The position numbers were made by a program, and so were the translations under genes. From positions 62,001 through 126,000 of the forward strand of contig CALLBO010000025.1 in assembly GCA_937998875.1 (NCBI GenBank): 64,000 nt of DNA. Direction: 5' to 3'. Origin of the DNA: an uncultured Granulosicoccaceae bacterium. Lineage in GTDB: Bacteria > Pseudomonadota > Gammaproteobacteria > Granulosicoccales > Granulosicoccaceae. Below, in pieces: positions 9,246-29,620 of the stretch (positions are counted from its first letter, which is position 1; every line of letters begins with the position of its first letter). Under the pieces are notes generated by a model that saw only the letters and a list, made by a program, of their open reading frames with translations, was not told the DNA's origin and did no database searches.

Positions 9246-11030
9246 ATGATTGAAGGCAGCGTGTTTGTGAATGGCTCCGCAACCGGACCAATACTCATGT
9301 CTACTACCGGGCTGAGTTTCTGGGGTGGTGTCGACCCCGCGACGGGCGTAGTTATTGATCAACACCATCCTTTGTACGGCGCTAATATTTCCGGATGTGT
9401 ATTGGCAATACCAAATGGACGAGGCTCTTGCTCTGGTAGCGGAGCGCTACTGGAGCTCATTCTCAACGATTGCGCACCTGCCGCCTTAATATTTTCAGAA
9501 GCCGAAGATATTTTGACACTCGGTGTCCTTGTGGCTGAGGCGATGTTTAATCGCAGCTTACCGATATTGCGATTGTCGCGATCAGACTTTGCAGACTTGA
9601 GTCAACATTCGTCGCCCCGGTCTGCAGAAACACAGAGTGCAGCAACCAAGAGTTCAATAGCTTCGATCAATGGCAGTCAGATGCTGATTGTTAATTCGGT
9701 AGATGAGATACCAACAGAACAACCCTCGTATGATTCCTCTGTAGAACGGGTAGTCGCACTTAACAACCTTGATAAAGACATACTGGCCGGTAAACATGGT
9801 ATTGCTGCCGGTATGGCGATGGAGATACTGCTCAAGATTGCAGACATCCAAGGTGCGGAATCGCTAATTGATGTCACCCAGGCGCACATTGATGCCTGCA
9901 TCTATCACGGCCCCTCGAGCCTGCGATTTGCAGCAGAGCTACAGGAACATGGAGCCAAATTCAAAATACCAACAACGCTTAATGCCATTTCAGTTGATCA
10001 GCGCAACTGGCGCCATCAAGGCATCGACAATGCAGTAGGTCAACCTGCGAGTGATCTTGGAGACATCTACATGCAAATGGGTGCAGATCTTAGTTATACC
10101 TGTGCTCCCTATCTTCTCGAAACAGCCCCCTCTTTTGGCGAACAAATTGTTTGGGCAGAATCGAATGCAGTGATGTTTGCCAACAGCGTCATCGGTGCCA
10201 GAACACAGAAATATCCGGATTTTCTGGATGTGTTCATCGCACTCACAGGCCGTGCACCGGCAAGTGGCAGCCACCTCGACAGCGGCCGTAAGCCAACGGT
10301 ATGTATTCACGTAGAAGCCCTCAAAAACACCGATGAAACACTCTGGCCATTGCTTGGTTACTACATTGGTCTGTATGCTGGTAACGATATTCCGATGATT
10401 ACCGGGTTGAGTGGCTCAACCGTGAGTAATAATCCAAGTGCTGACGACCTCAAGGCTTTTAGCGCTGCTTACGCCACCACCGGCTCATCAAGTATGTTTC
10501 ATATGGACGGAATCACACCGGAAGCAAACGACGCAATGCACTACTGCAGACAAAACGGATTACTTGAGAATGGCCTTACTGTGACCAGGGAAAATCTAGT
10601 CGCAAGCTACAGTGAACTTAATAGCGCAGAGCATTCGACTGTAGATGCAGTATGTCTCGGTAATCCACATTTCTCTGAGGCCGAATGCGCAAGGTTAGCC
10701 ACACTGTGCGACGGTCGACACAAGCATCCGGATGTGAAATTCATGGTGACACTCGGACGTGCTATCTACGATAAAGCCAAGGCACAAGGAAGCATCAATA
10801 CATTGGAAAACTTCGGTGTGCAGTTTATCACTGATACCTGCTGGTGCATGATAACCGATCCGGTTATTCCACCGAATGCAAACACATTAATGACAAATTC
10901 GGGTAAGTACGCTCACTATGGCCCGGCGCTGGTGAAGCGCGGGATTCATTTTGGAACCCTTGCAAATTGTGTTGACGCTGCGTGTAGCGGAAAACATGAG
11001 GTGAGCGTACCGCTGTGGTTGCGGAGCTAA
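9246..11030 (+). CDS. Aconitase X (fused small and large domains), probable cis-3-hydroxy-L-proline dehydratase
   Basis: This is a 594-residue protein. Residues 1-130 match the small swivelling domain (DUF126: GPILMSTTGLSFWGGVDPATGVVIDQHHPL, GRGSCSGSGALLE). Residues about 175-594 match the large aconitase-X domain (DUF521), with ADLSYTCAPYLL, SNAVMFANSVIGARTQKYPD, ITDTCWCM, MTNSGKYAHYGPAL and NCVDAACSGK, which carry the Cys residues expected to hold the iron-sulfur cluster. Fused bacterial AcnX proteins studied so far dehydrate cis-3-hydroxy-L-proline, while the split archaeal forms act on phosphomevalonate. No proline racemase or delta-1-pyrroline-2-carboxylate reductase gene is adjacent, so the substrate is inferred. 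An IclR gene precedes it. Confidence 0.92.
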   Translation: MIEGSVFVNGSATGPILMSTTGLSFWGGVDPATGVVIDQHHPLYGANISGCVLAIPNGRGSCSGSGALLELILNDCAPAALIFSEAEDILTLGVLVAEAMFNRSLPILRLSRSDFADLSQHSSPRSAETQSAATKSSIASINGSQMLIVNSVDEIPTEQPSYDSSVERVVALNNLDKDILAGKHGIAAGMAMEILLKIADIQGAESLIDVTQAHIDACIYHGPSSLRFAAELQEHGAKFKIPTTLNAISVDQRNWRHQGIDNAVGQPASDLGDIYMQMGADLSYTCAPYLLETAPSFGEQIVWAESNAVMFANSVIGARTQKYPDFLDVFIALTGRAPASGSHLDSGRKPTVCIHVEALKNTDETLWPLLGYYIGLYAGNDIPMITGLSGSTVSNNPSADDLKAFSAAYATTGSSSMFHMDGITPEANDAMHYCRQNGLLENGLTVTRENLVASYSELNSAEHSTVDAVCLGNPHFSEAECARLATLCDGRHKHPDVKFMVTLGRAIYDKAKAQGSINTLENFGVQFITDTCWCMITDPVIPPNANTLMTNSGKYAHYGPALVKRGIHFGTLANCVDAACSGKHEVSVPLWLRS

Positions 11031-11041
11031 CGCGCAAGAAC

Positions 11042-11184
11042 GAAACCGTTCGTGGGATTGCACGTTGTGATGATGCGATATTTTCGCCATAACCTAACTG
11101 CGTATTAGATCACCACACTGAACGGATAAGTGGCTATCTGGCGTGCTATACATTTGGTGGATGCGCAGGCTTATCCCCCCTACG
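11042..11184 (+). repeat. MITE-like repeat, copy 1 (left arm deleted)
   Basis: This stretch aligns along its length with 11289-11474. It shares GAAACCGTT, GTGGGATTGCACG, CCATAACCTA, TTAGAT, CCACACTGAACGG and the right end GGTGGATGC...TTATCCCCCCTACG. It lacks about 50 bases corresponding to the left inverted arm of copy 2, and the junction occurs at a shared CG. It begins just after the aconitase X stop. Confidence 0.75.
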
Positions 11185-11288: not shown

Positions 11289-11474
11289 GAAACCGTTGTG
11301 GGATTGCACGTAGTAATGACGCGATAATTTCGTAGGGGGGATAAGCTTGCGCATCCACCAAACTACCGCAACGAACGCCATAACCTACTGCAAATTAGAT
11401 AGCCACACTGAACGGGTAGTTATTTATCTGACGTGCCATACATTCGGTGGATGCCCAGGCTTATCCCCCCTACG
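11289..11474 (+). repeat. MITE-like repeat, copy 2, with intact terminal inverted repeats
   Basis: Within this copy, 11331-11362 (starting CGTAGGGGGGATAAGC) is the reverse complement of 11443-11474 with about three mismatches over 32 bases, enclosing 80 bp. The whole 144-bp unit could fold into one long hairpin, as small non-autonomous mobile elements do. The sequence before the left arm (11289-11330) is also shared with copy 1, so the duplicated block is larger than the hairpin. No transposase lies near. Confidence 0.75.
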
Positions 11475-13413: not shown

Positions 13414-16400
13414 ATGCCAATACGTTTTTTCTCAGACAAAAACCGGCCGGTTCATATGGGGCCTTACCCACTTGAACGACTGGCAAGAACCCAATTGTCG
13501 GACTTTTCAAACGTACCCGCATTTCACCCGTTGTCTTTCGTGCGCCCGGATGAACCGCTTAACCTCGTCAACGCCATGGATGATTATCAATCCATGATGG
13601 ACGCAATCCGCGACGGGTTTACCAACAAAACAAAATCATCCATGCCGGAAGATACGAAAGCTAGAGCAGAACATTTAAAATCGTTTTGTTACTTTCAGGA
13701 TGCGACTCAGGTGGGTATCTGCGAATTGCCGGACGCTGCCCGTCTTGCCCACCAGGTTCGCAACCCGGGTATCGAGAGGCTCGCAGAAGAACTGCGCACA
13801 AAACAGACTAAAACACTCGCTTCCGGCATAGACATGATCATGGCGGATCTAAAAGAATCCATGGAGTCACCACCCGCCTCTATCGACGATCACACGCATG
13901 CACTGGTGATTGTCAACGACATGGCCCGTGATCCGCGTGCCGGTGAGACTGGCACCAGCTGGCTTCGTGATTGCGCGGGCCATGCAGCGGCCATGCGGGC
14001 TACAGAAACTGCCGTAGTGATCGCAAATTATATTCGTTTGCTTGGCTGGGATGCGGTTGCACATACCGCTACAACTTCAGATATCGATCTGAATATCGCC
14101 ACCGTCGCCGCTGGTATTGCCACTGTTGAAAACGGAGAATTGTCTGCTCCGTACATCGGTAATCGATTTGCAGTTGCAGTTGTCACCACCACTCTTGATC
14201 TCGCTACTGACAAACCACTACGCGCTAAAGCTGAGCAACCGTGGTTACGCACTCAGGGACCAGCCTGGTGGTTCGGCACCGGCTTTCGTAAAAGCGCGCT
14301 TAACTATGACCCGTTTTCCAAACGGGACTTTTATCAGGGACCACACCCGTTTGAAACGCTAAAGCGAGTAGAAACCCCGACCACCTATATTGATGAGCCC
14401 CGCGTCGCGCGTGTGCCAAAGCGTACTGATATGTTTGCCCGCGCACAGTTCGGTGATATGGGTAAGAACCTGCAGGAAGGTGCAAAAGGTGGTTATTACG
14501 CTCGTAAAGCAGCACCATCAATGGCACAGAGAAGAATGTTAGGAGCTTTTGTTTTATTGCAGGACGGAACACCGAAAGAAGGTTCCCCAATTGATGGTAA
14601 GGCCGATGATGAAGCAGAGAATGCCAGTGCAGTAAAAGCGGCCAGCTACTTTCTGGGTGTAGATGCAGTTGGTATATCGCGCTGCCCGGACTGGACATGG
14701 TATAGCCATGATGCAACCGGTGCTCCGCTCGACCCACCGCATGATCAGGCAATCAGTATGATCATCGATCAGGGTTACGAAACCATGGAGGGCGCCAGTG
14801 GAGACGACTGGATAAGTGTTGCTCAATCCATGCGCGCTTACCTTCGCTTCTCGCTACTCGGTGGTGTTATCGCCAAACAAATAAGAAACCTCGGCTACAA
14901 AGCCAAAGCACACAGCGTACTAGATGGTGAAGTCCTGCAGCCACCGTTGCTATTGTTGGCAGGTTTGGGTGAAGTGAGCCGTATTGGTGAAGTGATCTTA
15001 AATCCGTTTCTTGGGCCAAGGCTTAAGTCCGGTGTCGTCACCACGACCATGCCAATGGCTCATGACAAACCCATCGACTTTGGTTTACAGAAGTTTTGCG
15101 AATCATGTAACAAGTGTGCACGGGAGTGTCCGTCAGGGGCCATTACCGCAGGACCTAAACTGATGTTTAACGGCTATGAGATCTGGAAGTCTGACAGCCA
15201 GAAATGTGCAACCTACCGAATCACCACAGAAGGTGGCGCCATGTGTGGGCGTTGCATGAAAACCTGTCCGTGGAATCTCGAAGGCATTTTTAAAGAAAAG
15301 CCGTTTCGATGGGCTGCCATGAATCTTCCAGTCACCGCACCCGCACTTGCAAGGCTTGACGACGCGGTTGGCAATGGCGGCCTTAACCCGGTAAAAAAAT
15401 GGTGGTGGGACCTTGAGCTTGATAAAGATGGCGGTTACCACCCGACAAAGAAGGAAGTTAACGAACGCGGCCTGCAGCGAGATCTGCATTTAAAATACAA
15501 AGATCAAACACTCGCCGTATACCCGGCACCACTCGCACCTCATCCACACCCGTATCCGTTTCCTATGGATCGCGAAGCCGGGATAGAAGCCTATCAGGCA
15601 ATGGTTACCGCGGAAGAGTATCAGGACAGGCTCAAACGAGGCGATGAGAGCATGGTGCACCAGTATTCAGAAGATAACGAAAGCCCCGTGTTGCGAGTGG
15701 TTGTCAGTAAAGCCGAAAACATGGGTGGTGCTATCACCAAATACGAACTTCGCGATATTGATGGTGCTGAACTGCCGGAATGGGAAGCCGGAGCACATCT
15801 CGATGTAGTAGTAGCACCCGAATTTCTCAGACAATATTCGATGTCTGGCAACCCGGCAGACAGGTCTGTCTATCAGATTGCAGTCCTTCTTGAAGATGAT
15901 GGGCGTGGTGGTTCTAAGCTTATGCACCGTATCTTTTCTGAAGGCCGTAAAGTGTTTATATCGCGACCGATTAATCACTTCCCTCTAGATGAAACCGCGT
16001 CAAAATCCGTATTGATGGGTGGAGGCGTTGGCATCACACCAATGATTGCAATGGCCCATAGACTACACGCCACAGGTGGTGATTTTGAGTTGCACTACTC
16101 TGCCCCATCCAGGGCAGAAGCTGCATTTGAAAATGATCTGATGTCATTCGAGTGGTCTAACAAGGTTAACTTGCATATTTCCGATGAAGGTACACGAGCA
16201 GATCTGGATGAAATACTGAAACGCTACCAGCAAGGAACTCAGCTATATACCTGCGGCAGCGAAAGATACATGAATGCGGTGACCGCAGCGGCAGAAGCCG
16301 CAGGTTATCCCGAAGAAGCCTGCCACCTTGAGTATTTCTCAGTTCCGGAAGTACCCGACTACATTAACCACGACTTCACATTGAAACTCGCCAAAAGCGG

Positions 16401-16635
16401 TAGGGAATTTCTTATTCCAGCAGATAAAACAGCGACCGATGTTCTGGCAGAAAACGGCATTCAGATTGACGTGAAATGTTCAGATGGAATTTGCGGTGTT
16501 TGCAAGTGCGGTCTACTTGACGGTGACGTAGAGCATCGGGACTTTGTGCTTTCCAAGGCACAGCGGGAAGGATCTATAATTTTGTGTCAGAGCAGAGCCG
16601 TGAAAGAGAATGGTGTTGTTACTGTGGATATATAA
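13414..16635 (+). CDS. rdhA: Reductive-dehalogenase-like enzyme fused to a flavin/[2Fe-2S] reductase (self-sufficient, catabolic type)
   Basis: This is a 1073-residue fusion. It opens NRPVHMGPYPLERLART with no Tat signal, so it should be cytoplasmic. Residues about 50-560 form the cobalamin-binding, nitroreductase-like region. C562xxC565xxC568xxxC572P, plus C598, C611, C614 and C618P, supply two [4Fe-4S] clusters. Residues about 680-1073 are a phthalate-dioxygenase-reductase-type module: flavin motif RQYS (806-809), pyridine-nucleotide motif GGGVGITP (from 869) and plant-type [2Fe-2S] ligands Cys1022, Cys1027, Cys1030 and Cys1058. The same architecture occurs in respiration-independent dehalogenases (Nitratireductor NpRdhA, Comamonas BhbA), which remove halogen from halophenols using NAD(P)H. 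No membrane-anchor RdhB gene is present. Substrate unknown; an aryl halide is inferred. Confidence 0.88.
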   Translation: MPIRFFSDKNRPVHMGPYPLERLARTQLSDFSNVPAFHPLSFVRPDEPLNLVNAMDDYQSMMDAIRDGFTNKTKSSMPEDTKARAEHLKSFCYFQDATQVGICELPDAARLAHQVRNPGIERLAEELRTKQTKTLASGIDMIMADLKESMESPPASIDDHTHALVIVNDMARDPRAGETGTSWLRDCAGHAAAMRATETAVVIANYIRLLGWDAVAHTATTSDIDLNIATVAAGIATVENGELSAPYIGNRFAVAVVTTTLDLATDKPLRAKAEQPWLRTQGPAWWFGTGFRKSALNYDPFSKRDFYQGPHPFETLKRVETPTTYIDEPRVARVPKRTDMFARAQFGDMGKNLQEGAKGGYYARKAAPSMAQRRMLGAFVLLQDGTPKEGSPIDGKADDEAENASAVKAASYFLGVDAVGISRCPDWTWYSHDATGAPLDPPHDQAISMIIDQGYETMEGASGDDWISVAQSMRAYLRFSLLGGVIAKQIRNLGYKAKAHSVLDGEVLQPPLLLLAGLGEVSRIGEVILNPFLGPRLKSGVVTTTMPMAHDKPIDFGLQKFCESCNKCARECPSGAITAGPKLMFNGYEIWKSDSQKCATYRITTEGGAMCGRCMKTCPWNLEGIFKEKPFRWAAMNLPVTAPALARLDDAVGNGGLNPVKKWWWDLELDKDGGYHPTKKEVNERGLQRDLHLKYKDQTLAVYPAPLAPHPHPYPFPMDREAGIEAYQAMVTAEEYQDRLKRGDESMVHQYSEDNESPVLRVVVSKAENMGGAITKYELRDIDGAELPEWEAGAHLDVVVAPEFLRQYSMSGNPADRSVYQIAVLLEDDGRGGSKLMHRIFSEGRKVFISRPINHFPLDETASKSVLMGGGVGITPMIAMAHRLHATGGDFELHYSAPSRAEAAFENDLMSFEWSNKVNLHISDEGTRADLDEILKRYQQGTQLYTCGSERYMNAVTAAAEAAGYPEEACHLEYFSVPEVPDYINHDFTLKLAKSGREFLIPADKTATDVLAENGIQIDVKCSDGICGVCKCGLLDGDVEHRDFVLSKAQREGSIILCQSRAVKENGVVTVDI

Positions 16636-19476: not shown

Positions 19477-20197
19477 CTAGTGGATATCTCCGTCACCGGT
19501 GATTACCGCTTTAAGTTTTTCAATTGAAAAGTCTGCAGACCTTGCTGCCGCCAGTATGCCTGCCTCTCGACGACCCATCTCAGCTACGGCTTCGGGAATA
19601 TCCTTAATAACATCAGCTGGAATGACAACAGCACCATGGACGTCCGCGTGTATAACATCATTGTGTTTGACCACCATGCCATGCACAGTTACCGATCCAC
19701 CAAAGTCGACCGGATGCACGAAAGCATGGCTGGGGCCTAACTGCCCGCCCAGTACCTGGAAACCCGACGCCACTATCCGCCACATCTCGATAAGACCCGT
19801 TTGTCACTACACCAAGTGCACCCAGACCTTTGTGCACTGCTGTATGCACTTCACCCCAGAACGCACCAACGGCCGGATGAGCATCAAGATCCTCGATGAC
19901 GATGATGGTCGGCCCGGTACCTGCTGCAACATACTCATAATACGGAATTCGGTCAGCCATACCATTGCCTCCGGAAAGGTCCGGCGCACTGGCTCTGATT
20001 GTCGCCGTTCGGGCATAACCGACAATAGGTTTTGCGCCGGGGTCAATACATGAAAATGCCTTAACGGTATAACCGTACCCTCGCCGGTGCGGAGCTACCA
20101 ATTCAAGCGCGTTACAAATTGTCGGGGTGTCCCACCGGGAAAGAATTTCAAGGTCAGCATCGGTTAATTTCAAGTCAATCTCCTTTTTAACAATCAT
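19477..20197 (-). pseudogene. RraA / HMG-aldolase-like protein, frameshifted
   Basis: The N-terminal part (IDLKLTDADLEILSRWDTP, then GYARTATIRA and ALGVVTNGSYRDV) is in one frame. The C-terminal part (RIVASGFQVLGGQLGPSHAF, VDFGGSVTVHGMVVKHNDVIHADVHGAVVIP) is in another. The switch falls near 19775-19800, where the first frame runs on into unrelated residues. Together they make a normal family length of about 235 residues. Intact relatives are 4-hydroxy-4-methyl-2-oxoglutarate/oxaloacetate-type aldolases or RNase E inhibitors. The start is unclear: ATG 20197, or TTG 20173, which has AAGGAG six bases before it. A sequencing error is possible. Confidence 0.85.
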
Positions 20198-20585
20198 TGC
20201 AATTACCGGCTCGTTTGGCAAACTAATAATGATCAGAAGTTTCGCTATATTTATAGCACCGAGGCAACTGAATCACTACAGTGAAATAGTTATGCTGATT
20301 GATCTTTTATTGCTGCAACCGGACCACTACAGGCTTCAAACCACCACGAGTCTGCATTCTCACCAGTGCGATCTGAGATTTTAGCGATGTAACCACTATG
20401 CAACGTACAACGATAATTCGCTGTATACAGGAGAAATAGCACTGTTTTGTAGATACCAGAACCCAATTTGGCGTCTATTGATTAACACTTCACGCAATTT
20501 GGCCGATAGACATAGCCTGGAAAAGTCCTATTGCTGAAAATGTTGCCGGCGAAAATAGGAAGTAACAGGTAAGAAGGAAGCTCAG
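20198..20585. other. Intergenic stretch, nothing recognised
   Basis: These 388 bases separate the divergent RraA-like pseudogene and the zinc-ribbon membrane protein gene. A ribosome binding site (GGAAG) precedes the latter. Short frames are present but unconvincing. I saw no repeat, RNA gene or strong hairpin. Confidence 0.4.
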
Positions 20586-21607: not shown

Positions 21608-23281
<1,674 letters not shown>

Positions 23282-27416: not shown

Positions 27417-27447
27417 TGCCGGTTGAATGTACAGCTTAGGTGCGATT

Positions 27448-27462
27448 CTGTATCGCATACAG
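27448..27462. promoter_or_regulatory. 15-bp palindrome CTGTAT-N3-ATACAG, candidate operator
   Basis: CTGTATCGCATACAG has perfect 6-bp arms with a 3-base centre and lies 38 bp before the Rieske oxygenase start codon. Its size and TGTAT/ATACA form resemble sites bound by GntR-family repressors of aromatic catabolism, but no GntR gene is in the window. Confidence 0.45.
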
Positions 27463-27500
27463 TAAGATTAACGCAGAAATACGAGATTACAGGGTTCACA

Positions 27501-28826
27501 ATGACTGATACGCAAACTGCTCCATACTCAGGTTACTTCAAAAGGGACGTGCCCGCGGAAGACCCCGAACTTACCCATACGGGACCGGGCACCGCATGTG
27601 GCGAATATCTGCGTCGTTACTGGCAACCAGTAGCCATGTCGAATGAAGTCAGTGACCTTCCGGTCGCGATACGCATTCTCGGTGAAGATCTGGTGTTGTT
27701 TCGGGACAAGGCGGGCACACTCGGGTTGTTGCACCGCCATTGCGCCCACCGTGGTGCGTCACTTGAATTTGGCATTATTATGGACTGCGGTATCAAGTGT
27801 TGTTATCACGGCTGGCACTTCGATGTAGATGGCAGACTTATCGACGCGCCATCAGAGCCTTTGGGTAGTCCGGTTCGTGACAAGGTTGTGCAAGGTGCTT
27901 ATCCCCTGCATGAAGTGAATGGACTGGTGTTCGCCTATATGGGGCCGCCAGATAAAAAACCTGACTTCCCCATCTATGACACGATGAACATCGAAGGCAC
28001 AGAGTCAAAAACGTTTTCACTCAGTATGCCAGCCAACTGGTTACAGGTTTATGAAAACACACAAGACCCAATTCATGTGATTCACCTGCATGCTCTGTCC
28101 AGTGGTGTGCAGTTTGGAGCGGCATCCGGTGTTGAGCAACTTATCGACTACCGCACCACACCACTCGGTATGATGAACGTGCAAACGCGTAGAGTGGGTG
28201 ATCACCTATGGACGCGCACAACCGATTCAATTTTCCCGAATGGCAATCAAACCGGTGCCATATGGGAGGAAGCAGAAGGCAAAAAGATATTTCAGCGAGT
28301 ATCGATGCTGCGCTGGATGGTACCAATTGATAACACGCATACCCTCACTATCGGGTGGCGCTACTTCAGTAAAGAGCTAGATCCGCGGGGGCAGGATGAT
28401 CCCTCACTGGTCGGAAAAGAGACCATCGATTTTATCGGCCAGACAGCTGGCCGTCCTTACGAAGAACAACAACGCCAGCCTGGTGATTATGAAGTACAGG
28501 TATCGCAACGACCAATAGCAGTACATGCACTCGAACACAGGGTAACGTCCGACCGGGGTGTGTCAAAGTTACGTGGTCTGCTTCGTGACAGAGTGAGAGC
28601 ACACGATAAAACGGGTGAGGCACCGATGCCTGTACTTAATGAAGATTCGATAGTATCGACGTATTGTCAGGATACTGTCTACCCGGTTGCACCCGTTGAA
28701 GACGATGAACAGTTGATGAAAAGATTTGGCGGGCGTGTTGCGGATACTGTCCTGGAGAGCGACTCTCTGACAGCTGCGAAACGCATCGAATCGATCGACA
28801 AGGTATGCACTAAAGAGTTTGGTTAG
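27501..28826 (+). CDS. Rieske non-heme iron oxygenase, alpha subunit (phthalate 4,5-dioxygenase-like)
   Basis: This is a 441-residue protein starting MTDTQTAPYSGYFKRD, with in-frame codons upstream dismissed as non-family. The Rieske cluster ligands are CxH in LLHRHCAHRGASLEFG and CxxH in KCCYHGWHFD (about residues 85-125). The catalytic iron motif is in NTQDPIHVIHLHALS. The length and ECxR-like C-terminus fit ring-hydroxylating or O-demethylating oxygenases of the phthalate/vanillate type. No reductase partner is adjacent. The fused reductase of the dehalogenase-like protein or the ferredoxin at 6.5 kb are too distant to assign. Confidence 0.93.
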   Translation: MTDTQTAPYSGYFKRDVPAEDPELTHTGPGTACGEYLRRYWQPVAMSNEVSDLPVAIRILGEDLVLFRDKAGTLGLLHRHCAHRGASLEFGIIMDCGIKCCYHGWHFDVDGRLIDAPSEPLGSPVRDKVVQGAYPLHEVNGLVFAYMGPPDKKPDFPIYDTMNIEGTESKTFSLSMPANWLQVYENTQDPIHVIHLHALSSGVQFGAASGVEQLIDYRTTPLGMMNVQTRRVGDHLWTRTTDSIFPNGNQTGAIWEEAEGKKIFQRVSMLRWMVPIDNTHTLTIGWRYFSKELDPRGQDDPSLVGKETIDFIGQTAGRPYEEQQRQPGDYEVQVSQRPIAVHALEHRVTSDRGVSKLRGLLRDRVRAHDKTGEAPMPVLNEDSIVSTYCQDTVYPVAPVEDDEQLMKRFGGRVADTVLESDSLTAAKRIESIDKVCTKEFG

Positions 28827-28904: not shown

Positions 28905-29360
28905 TTATTCGCAAAAATATTGATGCATATCGCGGGCTATCTCTACCGCATGTTCTTCAGCCATATAGTGAGTAGCATCCAAAGCATGGCCTGTCACTAT
29001 CTCTGCTTGTGCTCGCCGAAGAGCAACTGCATCGAAACAAGTTTCAATGACCCCTTGTTTTTTCCAAACCACGTGTAGTGGTATTACCAACTACTATTAG
29101 CGTCCGCGTCATCATGGGAAATGTCAATGGAGGCAGCGGCGCGATAATCTTCGCAGGAAGCATGCACCGCATCTTCGGTTTCAAAGCCGGACAGGTACTC
29201 TTCCAACGCGTCGGGGTGAAACGGGTTTCCATTTCTCGCTTGCATAGTGCACTTCATCACCCAAAACCCGCGGCAATGGGAACTTTGAGATAAGGAAAAA
29301 CCAGTGCCAGCAATGTCGGGCGAAGCTGACCCTACAGGCTTGTAGCTTACATCTGCACCC
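28905..29360 (-). pseudogene. Haloacetate (fluoroacetate) dehalogenase remnant, multiply frameshifted
   Basis: Three reading frames must be joined to follow one protein. From upstream: SFARHCWHWFFLISKFPLPRVLGDEVHYASEKW; then NPFHPDALEEYLSGFETEDAVHASCEDYRAAASIDISHDDAD ending in TAA at 29084-29086; then PLHVVWKKQGVIETCFDAVAL and GHALDATHYMAEEHAVEIARDMHQYF. This order and spacing is that of the cap and C-terminal half of alpha/beta-hydrolase haloacetate dehalogenases, including the catalytic His in GHYMAEE. The N-terminal half with the nucleophile Asp is not recognisable, so this is a decayed gene. Upstream limit approximate. Confidence 0.8.
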
Positions 29361-29620
29361 CAGGTTCTCAGAAAGGAGAACGCTTAATGGGGCAGCACAT
29401 CTTCTGAGTACGAATTTTCGAAAATATTACTGGAATCTATCCATGGTATTGACTCTTGGCTATCTAAATGGGACTATTGAGATGAAGGGATTATTTTCCC
29501 ATCACAAAAAGGATGATAATTTCACTGTCTGAGATCTACTGCGACAATGCTCGCACAAGTAATCTCCGCAGCCGAGTCTCACATCCAACCGATAATCTTA
29601 AGATTAGTGAGGAACCTAAG

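Follow-up and report, generated by a model that had tools for sequence, protein, structure and literature searches.

We have identified, in a 64,000-nucleotide stretch of an uncultured Granulosicoccaceae genome (the whole of which we call the window), a gene for a 1073-residue protein that joins a reductive dehalogenase core to a reductase (13414-16635, plus strand). It is very probable that this fusion is a soluble, cytoplasmic, self-powered cobalamin reductive dehalogenase, that it acts on ortho-brominated or ortho-iodinated phenols, and that its gene was acquired from alphaproteobacteria. Sequence comparison strongly supports the predicted function in kind, and analogy with characterized relatives suggests ortho-bromophenols and ortho-iodophenols as substrates. 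The analysis establishes the architecture, the intact frame, the conserved residues and the homology to enzymes of known function. The fusion clearly belongs to a known and already studied enzyme family, of which it is an ordinary but well-supported member; what is mildly new is evolutionary, in that the gene nests among alphaproteobacterial copies.

The frame starts with ATG and runs for 1073 codons with no internal stop, in agreement with the intact joined frame read in the initial annotation. The protein matched the NCBIfam model TIGR02486 ('reductive dehalogenase') at residues 445-653 with 211.7 bits against a cut-off of 160.35, and Pfam placed a double [4Fe-4S] domain at residues 562-621 and a plant-type [2Fe-2S] domain (Fer2) at residues 993-1062. 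By sequence, the best solved structures were those of NpRdhA (4ras and 6zxu), matched in two stretches within residues 3-743 (E ~1e-161), and residues 755-1066 matched the self-sufficient P450 fusions 6kbh and 6laa and the phthalate dioxygenase reductase 2pia. The reductase with flavin, NAD(P) and [2Fe-2S] sites that had been proposed is therefore present, but because the 2pia match spans residues 756-1064 (E 2.4e-53), it begins near residue 755, not at 806. The module contains the motifs RQYS (806) and GGVGITP (870) and the cysteines C1022/C1027/C1030/C1058, which we take to be the flavin site, the NAD(P) loop and the plant-type [2Fe-2S] site, respectively. When the predicted fold was searched with Foldseek, NpRdhA chains took ranks 1-14 and 6kbh, 6laa and 2pia took ranks 15-17, with the core poorly modelled. 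The cobalamin-binding fold is duplicated: two-sequence BLAST matched residues 81-330 with residues 391-560 (31% identity over 112 residues, E 6.6e-13), and the vestigial N-terminal copy gave a second reductive dehalogenase match of 45 bits at 75663-76220 of the contig (C25). Such a duplicated fold is typical of catabolic enzymes according to PMC10463259.

The fusion has in common with respiratory reductive dehalogenases the RdhA core and the motifs for both clusters, which would by themselves suit a respiratory enzyme. A respiratory enzyme requires a twin-arginine translocation (Tat) motif and an RdhB partner. However, motif scans covering residues 1-60 of the window protein and residues 1-80 of 119 locus rows (a count with duplicates and with the loci of the window itself) found no twin-arginine motif, and Pfam recognized no RdhB-like gene among the 44 open reading frames (ORFs, at least ~125 residues) of the window besides the fusion, as the initial annotation had stated on both counts. 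Since the protein also carries its own NAD(P)H reductase, we rejected the respiratory reading as extremely improbable. The same 44 ORFs contained no cobalamin gene, again as first described, and one such gene (CobQ, below) lies elsewhere in the genome.

Kinship to epoxyqueuosine reductase (QueG) without dehalogenation activity had been raised as a possible refutation. QueG and the reductive dehalogenases are placed together in one cobalamin class III family (PMC10463259), and the QueG model matched the fusion weakly, with 25.6 bits under its cut-off of 200. On the other hand, the reductive dehalogenase model scored 211.7 bits on the same protein, the genome contains a separate QueG scoring 499.2 bits, and the fused reductase and the duplicated fold, as in BhbA, speak against a QueG. 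This reading was rejected, and we give it practically no weight.

To locate the active site, the catalytic and substrate-binding residues of NpRdhA were taken from PMC7565698 and PMC10463259 and followed through an alignment of 120 rows, that is, the window protein and 119 locus rows, including duplicates and the window's own loci. Y426, K488 and R552 of NpRdhA correspond to Y476, K538 and R602 of the window protein, and S422, M423 and F291 to S472, M473 and F341. The alignment check that had been suggested for the catalytic Tyr and Lys/Arg thus finds them kept, and all six residues are identical in 120 of 120 rows and in BhbA. The cysteines 562, 565, 568 and 572 and 598, 611, 614 and 618, in the two ranges first pointed out (Cys562-572 and Cys598-618), align with the cysteines of NpRdhA and are likewise kept in 120/120 rows.

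BhbA, encoded on plasmid pBHB of Comamonas sp. 7D-2 (WP_015585978), aligned with window residues 3-1073 at 527 identical positions of 1063 (49.6%), and is like the fusion in its domain order from end to end, its catalytic residues and its 42-residue insert relative to NpRdhA. This end-to-end alignment adds the window fusion, as a new member, to the known catabolic dehalogenases of the self-sufficient kind (BhbA and JtRdhA). The BhbA gene is found on a conjugative IncP plasmid next to protocatechuate 4,5-dioxygenase and porin genes, whereas no ring-cleavage gene is linked to the window fusion. The same domain order had also been ascribed to NpRdhA (Nitratireductor pacificus; 4RAS, 6ZXU), for which it does not hold. 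NpRdhA shares ~42-44% identity with the window protein over 677-678 aligned residues and keeps the catalytic site, but it lacks the fused reductase and the 106-147 insert, and several of its pocket residues differ. Its solved chains are 704-725 residues long and match only stretches within window residues 3-743.

The host of the second self-sufficient relative, Jhaorihella thermophila, is an alphaproteobacterium. Its enzyme JtRdhA (WP_104007082), to which we liken the window fusion by description, is a marine RdhA-PDOR fusion with the Y/K/R residues (PMC10463259). JtRdhA uses flavin mononucleotide and carries out NADPH-driven debromination and deiodination of phenols, debrominates in air as under nitrogen, and enables E. 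coli W to grow on 3-bromo-4-hydroxyphenylacetate (PMC10463259). The same source places NpRdhA in a clade without a reductase domain and describes for JtRdhA a fusion-specific insert that covers the active site, to which the 42-residue insert of the window fusion probably corresponds.

A third relative, Ros_A3X954 of Roseobacter sp. MED193, is reported as a non-Tat marine debrominase (PMC13101508). It is an unfused protein of 395 residues without a reductase, and shares 29% identity with the window protein over 248 residues. We considered whether Ros_A3X954 could be the fusion of MED193 and rejected this, since the printed motifs, CDICTKCADACP at 283 and CAICMRVCP at 337, occur at exactly these positions in the short 395-residue protein of MED193 (L144). 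MED193 also has a fusion (L039), 70% identical to that of the window, for which we found no activity report. Short non-fused dehalogenases ~62% identical to Ros_A3X954 were observed in G020 (L145, contig C97) and G022 (L146, contig C248), the two same-genus genomes with the closest fusions; the window genome, which is 92% complete, showed no second dehalogenase of this kind.

We propose that hydride would be transferred from NAD(P)H to the flavin of the C-terminal reductase, and that single electrons would then pass from the flavin through the [2Fe-2S] cluster and then both [4Fe-4S] clusters, to reach cobalamin in its base-off state. The cobalamin would remove the ortho bromine or iodine from the phenol, with a proton supplied by Tyr476 together with Lys538/Arg602. 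The cell's own NAD(P)H would be the electron source, and no partner protein would be needed. The electron path, the preference for bromophenols and iodophenols, the oxygen tolerance, and a role in salvage or detoxification of algal halophenols are all suggested by analogy with the characterized enzymes. Aryl halides in general had been put forward as substrates; analogy with BhbA and JtRdhA narrows these to ortho-brominated and ortho-iodinated phenols.

The host genome (5.2 Mb in 121 contigs, 92.16% complete) contains, elsewhere than in the window, genes that could support the function of the fusion: cobyric acid synthase CobQ (461.1 bits), 4-hydroxybenzoate hydroxylase PobA (607.7 bits) and homogentisate dioxygenase HmgA (655.6 bits), all three above cut-off. 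CobQ, PobA and HmgA were over cut-off in 37, 30 and 39 of 48 family genomes, respectively. The fusion itself was found in 27 of the 48 family genomes searched, essentially full length in 22 and partial in 5, each of the latter with its piece at a contig start. A twenty-eighth matching genome, G036, was dropped, as its only match is confined to a reductase-like part of a frame of 729 codons. Frames of 717-744 codons in G032 (contig C119), G036 (C200) and G047 (C51) contain ~300 residues that are 36-38% identical to the reductase module, and are possibly self-sufficient P450-type fusions. Outside the family, none of 47 genomes of the same class matched the fusion at E up to 1e-60. Among the carriers is a one-contig, 7.78-Mb family genome (G045), which we take to be Granulosicoccus antarcticus.

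To place the gene, the 80 of 552 confirmed relatives most like the window protein were taken, which biases the tree towards close kin of that protein, and 20 of the 21 other full-length Granulosicoccaceae copies were added (G044 and the five partial ones were left out). Trees were built by quick search from 100 distinct fusion rows (99 and the window). The closest copies sampled were those of the same-genus genomes G022 (91% identity) and G020 (87%), followed by that of L001, from a Rhizobiaceae metagenome-assembled genome (MAG) (79%). Because no rpoB was found in the host genome, the host was placed by its GyrB, set against those of six further family genomes and of three alphaproteobacteria; in G022 no GyrB passed the cut-off. 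GyrB identity to the host was 92% for G013, 89% for G015, 80% for G020 and 56% for the genome of L001; G013 and G015, the nearest kin by GyrB among those compared, carry fusion copies of 66% identity. In the tree, the window copy and its two same-genus kin join L001 with a support of 100, and then two Boseongicola copies with a support of 97. With BhbA as outgroup, the enclosing set of 44 contains 41 other copies, all alphaproteobacterial (support 96), and a comparable set of 43 in the tree with NpRdhA has a support of 87. A single clade for the 21 Granulosicoccaceae copies was rejected (470 log-likelihood units worse, p-AU 1.5e-5). These copies need 9 label changes (gains or losses) on the tree, 5 of which are forced by well-supported branches; without the outgroup the number is 8. 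The guanine-cytosine content at third positions is 0.474 for the fusion and 0.480 on average for the window (standard deviation 0.033, 30 ORFs), so either the arrival was not very recent or the donor was of similar composition.

We also considered misplacement of alphaproteobacterial DNA in the Granulosicoccaceae genome by binning or assembly. Beyond the two same-genus genomes, the closest likeness of the fusion is to genes of alphaproteobacteria. The gene that lies 358 bp upstream is patchily distributed: 8 of the 31 other family genomes searched have a match, and G013, G015, G020 and G022 have none. However, the fusion lies inside a 136,898-bp contig, and the two genes checked on this contig look native. 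One, a 1202-residue hydantoinase/oxoprolinase gene in the window at 38 kb from the fusion, has a counterpart of 93% identity in the same-genus G015. The other, the upstream gene just mentioned, has its best sampled relatives (62%) in Granulosicoccaceae and none in eight alphaproteobacterial genomes. Fusion copies of 87-91% identity also occur in the two other same-genus genomes, and the one-contig genome G045 has a copy as well. We judge contamination very unlikely. From the tree and the flanks, it appears that this Granulosicoccaceae lineage received the fusion from alphaproteobacteria as a single, isolated gene.

The surroundings of the gene were surveyed in 100 loci (79 alphaproteobacterial, 20 from Granulosicoccaceae, and the window), using ORFs of at least 110 residues within 8 kb; many of the loci end at contig edges. 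The commonest neighbour family, a TRAP-transporter subunit by eye, occurs in 13/100 loci, and no general neighbour-gene signature for a substrate was found in the 100 loci. Shared upstream genes are kept in some alphaproteobacterial groups, where two families each occur in 11 loci and a third in 9; none of these loci is from Granulosicoccaceae. Only 2 of 15 window neighbours match anything in the survey, both at unrelated places. There is good evidence for lateral spread as a single gene, and the pattern reads as a one-gene function that has moved repeatedly; a stand-alone function would fit the lack of conserved neighbours. We lean slightly towards a broader proposal, in which the fusion made debromination a one-gene trait that was repeatedly transferred between marine Alphaproteobacteria and seaweed-associated Granulosicoccaceae for detoxification or salvage, with halogen-rich macroalgae as the selecting environment. 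Copies would then replace one another or alternate between lineages even inside one genus, and the gene would serve in detoxification and in opportunistic salvage of carbon, not in a dedicated pathway.

Several observations weigh against parts of what we propose. In the window protein the NpRdhA pocket residues F290, A419 and N452 are changed to M340, V469 and V502; these replacements are found in 117/120 (M), 118/120 (V) and 120/120 (V) of the aligned rows, and BhbA has F, S and A at the three positions. The K307/F310/P311 stretch of NpRdhA also differs, but two alignments place it differently and nothing is concluded from it. Since several residues near the pocket are unlike those of NpRdhA, the substrates may differ. 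The structure model has a mean predicted local distance difference test score of 68.1, with values <50 at residues 503-536 and 557-632 among others; because the cofactor core is weakly modelled, the predicted geometry is not relied on and the model is unusable for a check of the pocket. The non-fused Ros_A3X954 is inactivated by exposure to oxygen (PMC13101508), so that oxygen tolerance is not to be assumed across the cytoplasmic enzymes. CobQ alone does not establish a complete cobalamin pathway. PobA was over cut-off in 19/27 fusion carriers and 11/21 non-carriers, and is thus no marker of fusion carriage. Around the window fusion we recognized no linked transporter, regulator or ring-cleavage gene. 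In a plasmid collection, 8 records matched the fusion at E up to 1e-100, and 7 of the 8 were typed as non-mobilizable, that of BhbA being conjugative; plasmid-borne spread therefore gets little support from plasmid typing.

With the same fold and mechanism, the natural substrate could instead be a chlorinated phenol, another halo-aromatic compound or a compound without halogen. The pocket residues that are unlike those of NpRdhA would be in keeping with this. Bromine and iodine organics are common in the sea, which speaks for a brominated or iodinated substrate. Reduction of chlorinated compounds is ascribed to NpRdhA, in contrast to JtRdhA, in PMC10463259; on the other hand, JtRdhA has the architecture of the window fusion, and the chlorinated compounds tested with it were inhibitory only and were not turned over (PMC10463259). 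We consider a substrate of this other kind unlikely, and ortho-bromophenols or ortho-iodophenols remain the preferred candidates.

Halogen-metabolism genes, including a bromoxynil-degradation cluster, have been reported in Granulosicoccales MAGs from macroalgae (PMC10919026), so that this order has already been connected with bromo-aromatics in print; the terms reductive dehalogenase, rdhA and bhbA do not occur in the main text of that paper. Eight kelp Granulosicoccus MAGs have been surveyed for B12 genes, with the complete set in 1/8 and at least 10 of its genes in 7/8 (PMC9238374). In the open-access literature searched, we found no description of this fusion enzyme in connection with Granulosicoccales and bromo-aromatics, and no paper on a Granulosicoccus with a reductive dehalogenase; for dehalogenase, only OleA thiolases were found, by title. 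The fusion leaves the known dehalogenase mechanism unchanged. It would bring self-powered debromination to a family of Gammaproteobacteria that is known to occur on the surface of kelp, and as an enzyme with an intact active site it offers a testable link between algal bromophenols and epiphytes.

Table 1. Features of the fusion gene and of its surroundings in the window
Feature	Position	Strand	Distance from fusion	Basis
BhbA/JtRdhA-type self-sufficient catabolic reductive dehalogenase, 1073 aa	13414..16635	+		family models, structure matches, BhbA alignment
N-terminal vestigial copy of cobalamin-binding fold (~aa 80-270)	13651..14223	+		BLAST self-match
42-aa insert relative to NpRdhA (aa 106-147)	13729..13854	+		alignment; common to BhbA and other fusions aligned
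Catalytic cobalamin-binding core (~aa 400-560) with Y476 (14839-14841) and K538 (15025-15027)	14611..15093	+		TIGR02486, residue mapping
Two [4Fe-4S] motifs (C562-C618) and R602 (15217-15219)	15097..15267	+		Pfam Fer4_16/Fer4_7, cysteine conservation
Phthalate-dioxygenase-reductase-like module	15676..16602	+		2pia, 6kbh and 6laa matches; Fer2 993-1062
Single-chain aconitase X with swivel domain, adjoins IclR regulator	9246-11030	+		Pfam
Rieske protein	27423-28826		10.8 kb	Pfam
Decayed alpha/beta hydrolase, two frames, beside Rieske gene	28908-29383	-	12.3 kb	structure matches

The neighbours of the fusion in the window include an Asp/Glu racemase-like protein, a thioesterase, aconitase X, an IclR regulator, a DUF4345 protein, a short-chain dehydrogenase/reductase and a 2-hydroxyacid dehydrogenase, and none of them points to a substrate. 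The initial annotation had taken a Rieske oxygenase and a decayed haloacetate dehalogenase nearby as fitting halo-organic metabolism. The Rieske protein and the alpha/beta-hydrolase remnant are real, but given their distances and with no sign of linkage to the fusion the argument is weak, and these neighbours are uninformative on the substrate. The two pieces of the remnant (29087-29383 and 28908-29090, minus strand) best matched Alr0039 (E 3.9e-11) and 8sdc (E 7.3e-5), and matched the fluoroacetate dehalogenase 9c9f with E values of 9.3e-6 and 1.2e-4; Pfam and NCBIfam gave nothing meaningful on either piece. From these matches, it is possible that the remnant was once a haloacetate dehalogenase.

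Two other genes in the window appear to be split. A Baeyer-Villiger/FMO-type monooxygenase (21608-23281, plus strand), recognized by eye and by a weak Pfam FMO match, falls in two frames (21608-21799 and 21800-23281) and is thus probably decayed or misassembled. An RraA-like gene (19477-20221, minus strand) seems to be split into two overlapping frames, with the Pfam match on the upstream part. An intergenic repeat pattern, searched for in one exact spelling, was not found. Between aconitase X and the thioesterase, an 88-nucleotide direct repeat of 84% identity is present at 11097-11184 and 11387-11474, with a 32-nucleotide inverted copy of the end of the repeat at 11331-11362; this repeat is possibly a dispersed intergenic element.

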